DNA from: Candidatus Scalindua japonica
GTDB taxonomy: Bacteria > Planctomycetota > Brocadiia > Brocadiales > Scalinduaceae
Direction: 5' to 3'
NCBI RefSeq assembly: GCF_002443295.1
Contig: NZ_BAOS01000001.1
Location: forward strand, 186,001-250,000
DNA length: 64,000 nucleotides
Of the stretch, positions 23,149 to 26,590 are shown one piece after another; position 1 is the first letter of the stretch; every line of letters starts with the position of its first letter. A program made the translations under genes and the position numbers. The notes under the pieces are model-generated. The model was not told the origin of the DNA, did no database searches, and saw only the letters and a program-made list of their open reading frames with translations.

Positions 23149-23733
23149 ATGAAACGATGGATGAAAAGACAATTTTGTGACATAACGGTAACTTCCAGGC
23201 GGTCTGCAGGTTTTACGCTTATTGAAATGTTGATTGTAGTGATGCTTATGGGGATCACAGCAGCGATCAGTCTTCCCGCGATACACTCAACACTTACAGA
23301 AAACCGGCTTAAAGGTGCTGCTTATGAAGTCGTCACCGCACTGGAATACGCGCAGCTGACCGCTATGTCCTCCGGCAGAGGAACACGAGTGGTTATCGTG
23401 GAAAATCAAGAGCGTATTGGAGTAAGGCAGTACACATCAAATGCCGACTTTTTTACTGGTGGTGACGAACTGGCTGAAAATGATGTGGAAAATGGGTCGT
23501 ATGTATTAATGCCATACCCTACTAAAAAAGGAATAAATTACCCCATTCTGCTGACGGATGAAAATCGCTTTAGCGGCGTTGACATCACCGTATCAGACTT
23601 TAATGCAGGCAGTCAGGTAGACTTCAACGCACAGGGAGCACCGACGAAAGGAGGCTCTGTCACACTTGCTTTAGGAGGTGAACAGATAGTCGTAACCCTC
23701 GACGCACTGACCGGAAAGGTCACGGTGAATTAG
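23149..23733 (+). CDS. Minor pseudopilin, GspH/FimT-like
   Basis: 194 residues with a long basic leader ending in RRSAG, then FTLIEMLIVVMLMGITAAISLP, a class III prepilin signal with Glu+5. The adjoining sequence (NRLKGAAYEVVTALEYAQLTAMSSGRG) is typical of GspH/FimT, which keep an 'A...R..A...A' helix after the transmembrane segment. Minor pseudopilins prime and cap the pseudopilus in the inner membrane. The TAG stop is immediately followed by REP sequence, and the next pseudopilin gene is 2.4 kb away, beyond a transposase duplication and a toxin-antitoxin pair, so the ancestral operon appears split here. No clear ribosome site precedes the ATG. Confidence 0.85.
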   Translation: MKRWMKRQFCDITVTSRRSAGFTLIEMLIVVMLMGITAAISLPAIHSTLTENRLKGAAYEVVTALEYAQLTAMSSGRGTRVVIVENQERIGVRQYTSNADFFTGGDELAENDVENGSYVLMPYPTKKGINYPILLTDENRFSGVDITVSDFNAGSQVDFNAQGAPTKGGSVTLALGGEQIVVTLDALTGKVTVN

Positions 23734-23910
23734 TGTTTCTGGTGCGTAAAACGCACCCTGACGTTTAATCTTTCCAGACAAGTAGGGTGCATTCCATGCA
23801 CCGTTAACAACCTAGGATACGGCAATATTGATATCTATGAAACAAATACTTGATTACGCTGGCATGTTTCTGGTGCGTACAACGCACCCTACGATTTTCG
23901 TTTCCGGTGG
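23733..23910 (+). repeat. REP-like repeats (family A) upstream of RAYT copy 1
   Basis: Two inward elements: hairpin GGTGCGTAAAACGCACC at 23741-23757, starting seven bases after the pseudopilin stop, and GGTGCGTACAACGCACC at 23872-23888, just upstream of the transposase start. A GGTGCATTCCATGCACC hairpin lies between them (about 23787-23803). A matching pair sits in front of the second transposase copy (24582-24720). Location of REP hairpins directly beside a RAYT gene is the expected arrangement for this transposase class. Confidence 0.9.
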
Positions 23911-23920
23911 AATGTGATTA

Positions 23921-24469
23921 ATGTCGAATTACCGGCGTGCTAATGCAAAAGGAGGCACATATTTTTTTACTGTTGTGACGTATCGGCGACAAGAATTCTT
24001 ATGCGATGAAAATGTTCGAACGGCGTTGCGTGACGGTATTCGTGATGTGCAAACACAACATCCACTGATCATTGACGGTTGGGTTTTGTTGCCGGATCAC
24101 CTTCATTGTATATGGACGCTGCCGGAGGACGATTCAAACTTTGGTGTTCGCTGGGCTATGATAAAACGTTTCATAACAAAACAATGTGGTCCGGACTTAC
24201 GCCGTGATGATTGGATGAATGCATCAAAACGGAAACGAAATGAATCCACAATTTGGCAAAGGAGATTCTGGGAGCATATGATCCGTGATGAAGATGATTA
24301 TAATAGACATATGAATTATATACATTATAACCCGGTGAAGCATGGTTTGGTATCAAGTGTTAATGATTGGCCATATTCCACGTTTCACAGGTGTGTGAAG
24401 AAAGGACTATATCCACCGGATTGGGGTGGAGACGGAACAGATACAAACGAAGCGAGTTATGGTGAATGA
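23921..24469 (+). CDS. REP-associated tyrosine transposase (RAYT, Y1/IS200-like), copy 1
   Basis: 182 residues. The HUH motif is H60-L-H62 (LPDHLHCIW), and the likely nucleophile is a tyrosine in the C-terminal helix around [17 protein letters not shown]. These single-strand endonuclease-like transposases cut at REP hairpins, and the gene here is flanked by REP hairpins on both sides, with GGTGCGTACAACGCACC ending 32 bases before its ATG. The frame is intact. It differs from copy 2 at seven residues. RAYTs are usually single-copy, domesticated genes, so an intact tandem pair is notable. A GCAGGCAATGCCTGCC palindrome lies about 40 bases after the stop (24508-24523). Confidence 0.92.
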
Positions 24470-24730
24470 GTGGATTGCCATTCATTTTGGATTGGTATAA
24501 ATAACGGCAGGCAATGCCTGCCCTACGTAATTGTGGTTCTTTGAAAAATTAAATTATGGTGTATTATCTGACGTTTAATCTTTCCAGGCAAGTAGGGTGC
24601 ATTCCATGCACCGCTAACAACCTTTGATGCGGCAATAATGTTATCTATTAAACAAATACTTGATCACGCTGGCATGTTTCTGGTGCGTACAACGCACCCT
24701 ACGATTTTTGTTTCCGGTGGCATGTGATTA

Positions 24731-25279
24731 ATGTCGAATTACCGGCGTGCTAATGCAAAAGGAGGCACATATTTTTTTACTGTTGTGACGTATCGGCGAC
24801 AAGAATTCTTATGCGATGAAAATGTTCGAACGGCGTTGCGTGACGGTATTCGTGATGTGCAAACAAAACATCCACTGATCATTGATGGTTGGGTTTTGTT
24901 GCCGGATCACCTTCATTGTATATGGACGCTGCCGGAGGACGATTCAAACTTTGGTGTTCGCTGGGCTATGATAAAACGTTTCATAACAAAACGATGTGGT
25001 CCGGACTTACGCCGTGATGATTGGATGAATGCATCAAAACGGAAACGAAATGAATCCACGATTTGGCAAAGGAGATTCTGGGAGCATATGATCCGTAATG
25101 AAGATGATTATAATAGACATATGAATTATATACATTATAACCCGGTGAAGCATGGTTTGGTAACAAGTGTTAAGGATTGGCCATATTCCACGTTTCACAG
25201 GTGTGTGAAGAAAGGACTATATCTACCGGATTGGGGTGGAGACGGAACAGATGCAAACGAAGCGAGTTATGGTGAATGA
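24731..25279 (+). CDS. REP-associated tyrosine transposase (RAYT, Y1/IS200-like), copy 2
   Basis: 182 residues, 175 identical to copy 1. The substitutions are Q to K, Q to R, D to N, S to T, N to K, P to L and T to A, none in the HUH or NPVKHGL segments, so both proteins should be active if either is. Upstream REP hairpins (GGTGCATTCCATGCACC at about 24597-24613 and GGTGCGTACAACGCACC at 24682-24698) and the downstream GCAGGCAATGCCTGCC palindrome (25318-25333) are duplicated with the gene. The unit ends at the 3' end of brnA. Low divergence points to a recent duplication. Confidence 0.92.
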   Translation: MSNYRRANAKGGTYFFTVVTYRRQEFLCDENVRTALRDGIRDVQTKHPLIIDGWVLLPDHLHCIWTLPEDDSNFGVRWAMIKRFITKRCGPDLRRDDWMNASKRKRNESTIWQRRFWEHMIRNEDDYNRHMNYIHYNPVKHGLVTSVKDWPYSTFHRCVKKGLYLPDWGGDGTDANEASYGE

Positions 25280-25373
25280 GTGGATTGCCATTCATTTTGG
25301 ATTTGTATAAATAACGGCAGGCAATGCCTGCCCTACGTAATTGTGGTTCTTTGAAAAATTAAATTATGGTGTA

Positions 25374-25622
25374 TTATCTGACGTTTAATCTTTCCAGGCG
25401 TTCCGCAAGCCACATTTTGATAAGGGCTGTTCTGGCAACGCCGATGTGCTGTGCTTCTTTGTCAATTTTATTTAAAAAAGATATGGGAAAATCAATATTA
25501 ATCCTTTGGACCTTTTTGTTTACTTTTGCCCTTTTGCTATCGAGGAAATCTCCCATATCTTTACCGTTATCAAAATCTTTATCAAATTCTTTGGAGGTTA
25601 TCTTACTCTTTGATTTTTTCAT
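25374..25622 (-). CDS. brnA: BrnA-family antitoxin (ribbon-helix-helix)
   Basis: 82 residues. The C-terminal half (RINIDFPISFLNKIDKEA followed by GVARTALIKMWLAERLE) is the ribbon-helix-helix domain of BrnA, which binds DNA as a dimer and neutralises BrnT. The polar N-terminal half, rich in Lys/Asp, is the likely toxin-binding part. Its start overlaps the end of brnT by 20 bases, the usual toxin-first order. The last six codons and stop are encoded by the 19-20 base motif that bounds each RAYT tandem unit, so the native C terminus either donated that motif or was rewritten by the insertion. The BrnA core is complete, so function is probably retained. Confidence 0.82.
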   Translation of the reverse strand: MKKSKSKITSKEFDKDFDNGKDMGDFLDSKRAKVNKKVQRINIDFPISFLNKIDKEAQHIGVARTALIKMWLAERLERLNVR

Positions 25623-25872
25623 GATATATGTTCCTTTCTTTTGTCCTGCTTCTTCTACATGAGATTATCCTTATCTTTTTGTCTCTGGTTGTAAAGATGC
25701 AGGAGAATAGACGGGTTTTTATTTTACCGATAATCATGTATCTTTGTTCACCTTCGGTAATTGCAGGCAATTTTACGTGGGTATTTGACCAGATAGTTTT
25801 CGCTTCTTCAAAGTCTACCCCGTGTTTTTGTTTATTTATTACGGATTTATTTGAATCATATTCAAATTCCAT
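25603..25872 (-). CDS. brnT: BrnT-family ribonuclease toxin
   Basis: 89 residues, ATG at 25872. It matches the BrnT layout: N-terminal EFEYDSNKSVINKQKHGVDF (family form D-x-x-K-x-x-x-N-x-x-K-H-G-V), then EGEQRYMIIGKI and the C-terminal IRIISCRRSRTKERNIY, corresponding to the IRIISARRA...E segment that forms the RNase active site. BrnT cleaves RNA in the cytoplasm and is inhibited by BrnA, encoded immediately downstream and overlapping. The pair is antisense to the surrounding pseudopilin genes and sits beside the RAYT duplication, consistent with horizontal acquisition. The first 50 bases upstream are very AT-rich and probably include the promoter autoregulated by BrnA. Confidence 0.85.
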   Translation of the reverse strand: MEFEYDSNKSVINKQKHGVDFEEAKTIWSNTHVKLPAITEGEQRYMIIGKIKTRLFSCIFTTRDKKIRIISCRRSRTKERNIYHEKIKE

Positions 25873-25925
25873 ATTAAAATTGTATCAAAATAATATATAT
25901 ATTCAATTATTTATATACAGGACAA

Positions 25926-26095
25926 GTAGACAAGTAGGGTGCATTCCATGCACCGTTAACAACATTGGATATGGCAATGGTGTTATCTATTAAACAAATA
26001 CTTGATTACGCTGGCGTGTTTCTGGTGCGTAAAACGCACCCTACGAATATTGTTACCGGACGGAGAATGTTTCTGGTGGGCAGTGCCCACCCTAC
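25926..26095 (+). repeat. REP-like repeat unit (family A), one full unit
   Basis: One complete unit with all three hairpin types in order: GGTGCATTCCATGCACC (about 25939-25955), GGTGCGTAAAACGCACC (26024-26040) and GGTGGGCAGTGCCCACC (about 26075-26091), joined by the common linker. It lies between the brnT start and the GspI-like gene and so marks the right edge of the insertion that splits the pseudopilin cluster. Confidence 0.9.
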
Positions 26096-26161
26096 ACCTA
26101 CACCGACTGAATCTGCATTAAACCGGCTTTCCCAGGTTAGCAGCTTTACCGGAGATTCACT

Positions 26162-26590
26162 ATGTCTTTGAAAAAACAATTTAATCAAATAGAAAAATTA
26201 AAAGCCTCTTTCGGCTTTACCCTGGTAGAAGTTATATTTTCCGTAGTCATTTTAGGGCTCATCTCCGCGGGGGTTGCCTACCCGTACATGATAGGTATGA
26301 AGTCCATCAACGCGAAGGAGGATCGTATGCTTCTCGACAGCGCGCTCCGCAGCCGGATGGAAATACTTATAAGTACCGACTTTGGCGCACTCAGCGATAG
26401 TTCTGAGGTAGTTAATATTAATGGACAGAATTATACTATTACCTGGACGGTGGTGAACATGGATATGGACGGGGACGCTGTACCGGAGACGAATGCAAAA
26501 CTGGTTGTTGTATCGGTAACGGAAGTGCCCGGACGTTCTCTGACAACCATCATCGTAGATAATGAAGGCAGAATAGGTAAGATATCATGA
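26162..26590 (+). CDS. Minor pseudopilin, GspI/PilV-like
   Basis: 142 residues. The prepilin signal FGFTLVEVIFSVVILGLISAG has Glu+5, preceded by a basic leader. The short body (EDRMLLDSALRSRMEILIS, then a small sheet domain) fits GspI or PilV, minor subunits that nucleate the pseudopilus tip with GspJ and GspK. GGAG lies about eight bases before the ATG. Its stop overlaps the start of the GspJ-like gene (ATGA), so the two are coupled. Its predecessor in the cluster is the GspH-like gene beyond the RAYT/BrnTA insertion. Confidence 0.82.
   Translation: MSLKKQFNQIEKLKASFGFTLVEVIFSVVILGLISAGVAYPYMIGMKSINAKEDRMLLDSALRSRMEILISTDFGALSDSSEVVNINGQNYTITWTVVNMDMDGDAVPETNAKLVVVSVTEVPGRSLTTIIVDNEGRIGKIS

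Follow-up and report, generated by a model that had tools for sequence, protein, structure and literature searches.

The window, a stretch of 64,000 nucleotides comprising positions 186001-250000 of contig C1 of a draft genome assembly from an anammox-type planctomycete (4.81 Mb, 47 contigs), contains a tandem pair of RAYT transposase genes whose origin is best explained by recombination between repeats, with a probability of about 0.7. RAYTs are the textbook example of a domesticated bacterial transposase; the analysed genome holds three intact, near-identical copies of what fits the group-2 type, and the steps by which they arose can be traced from 20-bp scraps that an antitoxin gene left behind. 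The anatomy of the locus, the brnA nature of its repeated motif, the uniqueness of the junction, the order of states and the recent age can be read directly from the nucleotide sequence, the copy number of the tandem being that of one assembly.

Structure of the tandem RAYT locus

Unit 1 (23758-24567) and unit 2 (24568-25377) are directly adjacent and comprise 810 bp each. In both, the 20-bp motif comes first, with a REPIN, an intact RAYT gene and one REP of another class behind it; the opening 20 bp of the units recur once more after unit 2. The following features were assigned to the locus:

23733..23761, no strand assigned: half REPIN (one REP arm in reverse orientation), repeat family D3
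23741-23761: REP arm pattern within the half REPIN, 2 mismatches
23758..23777, minus strand: remnant of the brnA 3' end, copy 1, 20 bp, identical to 25378-25397
23782..23892, plus strand: REPIN/BIME of unit 1, two inverted GTAG-headed REPs with 7-bp perfect stems and 3-nt loops
23921..24469, plus strand: RAYT copy 1, 182 aa, HUH (DHLH) and catalytic Tyr intact
24506..24526, minus strand: downstream REP of another class (GTAGGGCAGGCATTGCCTGCC), unit 1
24568..24587, minus strand: remnant of the brnA 3' end, copy 2, 20 bp, at the junction between the units
24592..24702, plus strand: REPIN/BIME of unit 2
24731..25279, plus strand: RAYT copy 2, 182 aa, HUH and catalytic Tyr intact
25316..25336, minus strand: downstream REP of another class, unit 2
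25374..25622, minus strand: complete brnA antitoxin gene (NF047399, E=7.6e-26; PF12441)
25603..25872, minus strand: brnT toxin gene (PF04365, E=2.4e-22), overlapping brnA
25928..26059, plus strand: solo REPIN/BIME behind brnT

A preliminary description of this DNA had reported an exact tandem duplication. The duplication is real and its period is exactly 810 bp, but the units are identical at 789 of 810 positions only (97.4%). Nine of the 21 differences fall into the RAYT reading frame, seven being nonsynonymous and two synonymous; both frames (23921-24469 and 24731-25279) are open, in line with the earlier statement that two intact transposase genes differ by seven amino acids. The range formerly given for the element, 23761-25399, leaves out what explains the repeated motif, whose third copy is the coding 3' end of brnA, with brnT and the REPIN at 25928-26059 behind it.

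The RAYT-brnTA block lies between a gene for a pilin-like protein with a GspH domain and the next pilin-like gene (window 23149-26590), within a run of type II secretion and pilin genes (T2SSE, T2SSF and N_methyl proteins), and the half REPIN at its left border is located immediately past the stop codon of the gspH-like gene. A search of the pilin/T2SS-like operons of relatives for the corresponding empty site yielded no orthologous site, since the downstream pilin-like protein has weak matches there (25-52% identity over part of its length).

In the REPINs of the window, two GTAG-headed REPs stand in inverted orientation, their 7-bp stems being perfect. The predicted fold of the solo REPIN was far below that of shuffled sequence (z -3.8); that of the unit-2 REPIN was not (z -0.8), and its centroid structure contains the same two hairpins. 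The REP hairpins GTAGGGTGCATTCCATGCACC and GTAGGGCAGGCATTGCCTGCC are candidate substrates of the RAYT. When one mismatch at most was allowed, the genome contained 60 REP arms (reversed-pattern control, 0), and 35 of these fall into a 96-kb part of contig C1 around the RAYT copies; in two Marinomonas REPtrons, such clustering of REPs close to the gene has been interpreted as pointing to recent arrival (PMC8266576). The arms are nearly invariant and the spacers differ by about 10%, a contrast that rests mainly on the alignment, as counting by arm pattern favours conserved arms. Invariant arms would be expected if the enzyme recognises the arms.

The 20-bp motif and its junctions

The preliminary description had noted a boundary motif at three sites. 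Its recurrence stands, as the 20-nt sequence CTGACGTTTAATCTTTCCAG occurs exactly at 23758, 24568 and 25378 (three matches when up to three mismatches are allowed, with none expected by chance); its role as a boundary does not. The third copy (25378-25397) represents the last codons of the minus-strand brnA gene, and this native brnA end is kept in three relatives. In one genome (L063), brnTA is 84% identical and is accompanied by neither a RAYT nor a REPIN, with GCGTTTAATCTTTCCAG at the place of the motif. A pattern search detected such native brnA ends in four genomes of the genus, with a single copy per genome. The brnA end without a RAYT and the single native ends therefore identify the motif as brnA, and the two upstream copies are 20-bp scraps of this gene. 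A function of the motif as an element terminus was ruled out by its being brnA coding sequence. For the same reason, a circular 810-bp intermediate, proposed earlier as a means of verification, would not be expected to form, since a remnant of brnA is no element end.

In the closest named relative, Candidatus Brocadiaceae bacterium S225 (L036), and likewise in another genome (L015), intact brnTA adjoins the RAYT tail without a break, and a REPIN comes next. In the window, the first brnA remnant is fused to the REPIN start at CCAG/ACAAG. This joint (TTTAATCTTTCCAG/RCAAGTAGGG) occurs three times in the analysed genome, namely ahead of unit 1, at the border of the two units and, 60 kb away, at another intact RAYT copy, the third (L002); it was absent from 12 relatives of the genus in a sequence-pattern search. 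The distant RAYT copy is 97% identical; its locus starts at a REPIN edge and continues through the brnA scrap into a REPIN. The left edge is thus shared with the window, and the right side of the distant copy continues into a REPIN. Unit 2, on the other hand, keeps the ancestral right side, because it adjoins intact brnTA as in the sister genomes. Unit 1 and the distant copy have derived sites in common at codons 52, 88 and 123, with codon 177 in conflict, so that the distant copy probably descended from the unit-1 lineage. Accordingly, the RAYT is present not as a tandem pair alone, as first described, but as a tandem pair with a third intact copy and a broken copy on contig C34. The latter (L085, 2565-2931) is an internal RAYT fragment with frame breaks between two REPINs and represents a decay intermediate.

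These junctions bear on two readings of the tandem. An assembly artefact, in which one unit was duplicated by the assembler, is conceivable for a draft of 47 contigs and was the refutation envisaged at the outset. A false expansion would, however, yield identical copies and no independent joint, whereas the units differ at 21 sites, nine of them inside the gene, the same novel junction is found at the distant locus, and the nearest relative also contains repeated RAYT pieces around brnTA; an artefact is thus very improbable. Alternatively, the 20-bp motif might be a target-site duplication generated by insertion of the RAYT into brnA, as it flanks both units in direct orientation. This reading is hardly credible and was rejected, since it is contradicted by two loci: sister genomes, including S225 (L036), have the RAYT beside brnA without an upstream motif, and the 60-kb copy (L002) carries the motif on one side only. 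Moreover, enzymes of the Y1/IS200 type make no larger target duplications (PMC2817692).

Origin of the tandem copies

The synonymous divergence among the three RAYT copies amounts to 0.009-0.027, compared with 0.49-0.53 to S225. With a dS of about 0.02 against about 0.5 to the sister species, the copies are recent, which bears out the recent duplication assumed previously. Two explanations had been offered for it, current activity or recombination between flanking repeats, and recombination is the better of the two.

We infer the following recombination route, together with enzymatic activity of the RAYT. Before the split from the sister species, the locus would have had the order REPIN-RAYT-tail-brnA-brnT-REPIN, with a group-2-type RAYT beside brnTA. 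In the analysed lineage, a single rearrangement would have fused the 3' end of brnA (ending in CTTTCC AG) with the 5' edge of a REPIN (AG ACAAGTAGGG), using 2 bp of shared sequence. This junction may have formed either by a tandem duplication with its right end inside brnA or by a deletion of about 530 bp in which a 1.34-kb tandem like that of S225, presumably the product of a crossover of the flanking REPINs, lost brnTA from one of its units; both routes are recombination. S225 indeed contains a 1340-bp version of the tandem, in which the second RAYT is truncated, and a RAYT scrap between REPINs, so that REPIN-bounded duplication and deletion recur. The 810-bp unit would then have been amplified by homologous recombination, the leading unit would have been trimmed to half a REP and 20 bp of brnA, and one unit would have been copied once to the site 60 kb away, between REPINs. 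A further, trimmed unit is suggested by the REP piece and the brnA scrap preceding unit 1, and the half REPIN at 23733..23761 is probably the remnant of this additional upstream unit (U0). For each RAYT, the prediction is that its HUH and Tyr residues nick REPs folded as single-stranded GTAG hairpins, leading to the spread of REPINs.

One of the observations against the recombination route concerns the REPINs. The REPIN part of the units (23776-23911 versus 24586-24721) differs by about 8% and the rest by about 1.5% (Fisher p 1.4e-4), an excess also seen in comparison with the 60-kb copy, and simple duplication gives no explanation for it. Conversion of the gene bodies or exchange among REPINs could have caused this uneven divergence.

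The RAYT might also have moved its own gene, producing both the tandem and the 60-kb copy. In this alternative, the enzyme would have cut the single-stranded 810-bp unit at CT beside REPINs, between C and T on the bottom strand (brnA GCC/TGG and REPIN edge TTGTC/TGA), capturing the 20-bp brnA piece, and the unit would have been closed and joined beside REPIN 5' edges. The HUH and Tyr residues are intact, and TnpAREP is known to cut and rejoin at CT beside REPs (PMC8266576). CT is common to both novel joints, the brnA/REPIN joint on the bottom strand and that of the trimmed unit on the top strand (CACCCT/TATCT), and the 60-kb copy is structured as if the unit had joined the AG/ACAAG edge of a pre-existing REPIN. 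Sharing of CT at the joints is suggestive of RAYT action, with a mixed picture across several junctions; as proof of such action the CT-cut signature was discarded after several junctions had been examined with mixed results. Two-base overlaps are common in ordinary recombination, the CT test was post hoc, and the RAYT-fragment junctions in S225 and on C34 are inconsistent for CT. Moreover, no insertion into a REPIN-free site was seen, and mobility of the TnpAREP gene is unreported in the literature searched. The 60-kb copy may have been moved by RAYT catalysis; mobilisation of the RAYT gene by its own product, with capture of the brnA piece, is unlikely on the whole. If it did occur, this lineage would hold a RAYT still acting like an insertion sequence.

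A different explanation for the retention of two copies is selection for dosage, in which more transposase benefits the host. Both reading frames are intact, but nonsynonymous and synonymous rates are similar among the copies, in contrast to a dN/dS of about 0.1 to S225, which makes dosage selection most unlikely. No constraint was detectable among the RAYT copies, the tandem pair differing by seven nonsynonymous and two synonymous changes. If the long-term ratio of 0.1 held, nonsynonymous changes would make up about one quarter of the total, and by hand calculation seven or more among nine would be expected with a probability of about 0.001; the excess can in part reflect the usual inflation at short divergence.

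Relation to known RAYTs and REPINs

The classification as a REP-RAYT element agrees with the protein evidence. RAYT copies 1 and 2 matched NF047646 with 200.6 and 199.6 bits (cut-off 80), and the HUH histidines and the Tyr align to E. coli TnpAREP (4ER8, E=1.2e-47), a group 2 RAYT (subclass 2.2). This alignment extends over almost the full protein length and includes the HUH, WQxRFWEH, Tyr and C-terminal parts, the DHLH motif and the Tyr motif of the Y---NP type corresponding to HMH and DYIYINPVKHG of 4ER8. Since DHLH, YIHYNP and the C-terminal extension match Table 1 of PMC6006769, the protein fits group 2, subclass 2.2. Like group 2 genes, the RAYT is flanked at both ends by recurring GTAG-headed palindromes. 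The REPs of group 2 are, in the majority, long and often bulged, whereas those found here have short perfect stems of 7 bp with 3-nt loops, as in group 3 (PMC8266576); the name group 2 is therefore claimed for the protein alone.

The description of RAYTs as normally single-copy, which is a usual rather than a strictly defining property, is in accordance with the literature: tnpAREP is single-copy "in most cases" without evidence of mobility (PMC8266576), neither multiple copies nor changes of location were reported (PMC2817692), and RAYTs are mostly single-copy without mobility evidence (PMC8049555). Subclass 2.2, equivalent to Bertels group 2, has a mean of 1.5 copies per genome, which are 42% identical to one another (PMC6006769), in contrast to the three near-identical intact copies found here. 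Among 392 genomes drawn from the phylum, 34 gave a strong RAYT match, and two strong RAYTs at most 2 kb apart on one strand were found in the analysed genome only, scoring being confined to the best candidates of each genome. A looser cut-off added two genomes of the same order with neighbouring RAYT copies. One of them, a single-contig genome (L080, 1295-2733), contains two intact RAYT-like genes 905 bp apart that differ by 8 nt and 4 aa and are embedded in arrays of a 26-bp repeat; the other contains a degenerate RAYT array. Tandem RAYTs are thus rare yet recurrent and have arisen more than once in the order, the pair of the single-contig genome being independent of that in the window. A described tandem RAYT pair was not found in the literature searched.

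The REPINs resemble those of Pseudomonas fluorescens SBW25 and E. coli in being inverted REP pairs with conserved arms and a variable spacer and in forming tandem clusters beside RAYT genes (PMC3116915). They differ in that only about 60 arms are present, 35 of which lie in the 96 kb around the RAYT copies, and in that the tandem unit contains the RAYT gene itself. With IS200/IS605 elements, the RAYT has in common a Y1 HUH transposase and the presence of several near-identical copies per genome; unlike class 1.1, it carries Y---NP instead of Y---Q, and it lacks defined ends common to all copies, the tandem boundary being a gene scrap. The brnT/brnA genes form a canonical type II toxin-antitoxin pair, located here on the minus strand, which is set apart by adjoining a REPIN-RAYT unit in three species and by the fact that its 20-bp brnA pieces mark RAYT duplications. 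In kind, the element of this locus is a known one; its multi-copy state is unusual, and so is the clarity with which the formation of the copies is recorded. It provides a natural test case for what keeps RAYT copy number at one, selection or simply a lack of movement.

Further RAYT-like genes in more than one copy were observed apart from this locus. A second, different RAYT-like gene occurs twice in the same genome, in 608-bp units of 98.4% identity with unrelated flanks (L082, 1578-2185, on C17; L083, 1997-2602, on C19) and with AAAGACCTGACCCCTTTTTT at one unit end; these units look more IS-like than the RAYT of the window. Methylomonas sp. LW13 (L045, 5001-6919) contains two adjacent, diverged RAYT-like genes. 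Finally, another planctomycete genome (G249) is possibly a further multi-copy case, with three RAYT genes on its contigs C1, C7 and C38 whose frames are all 178 aa long and whose scores are similar.
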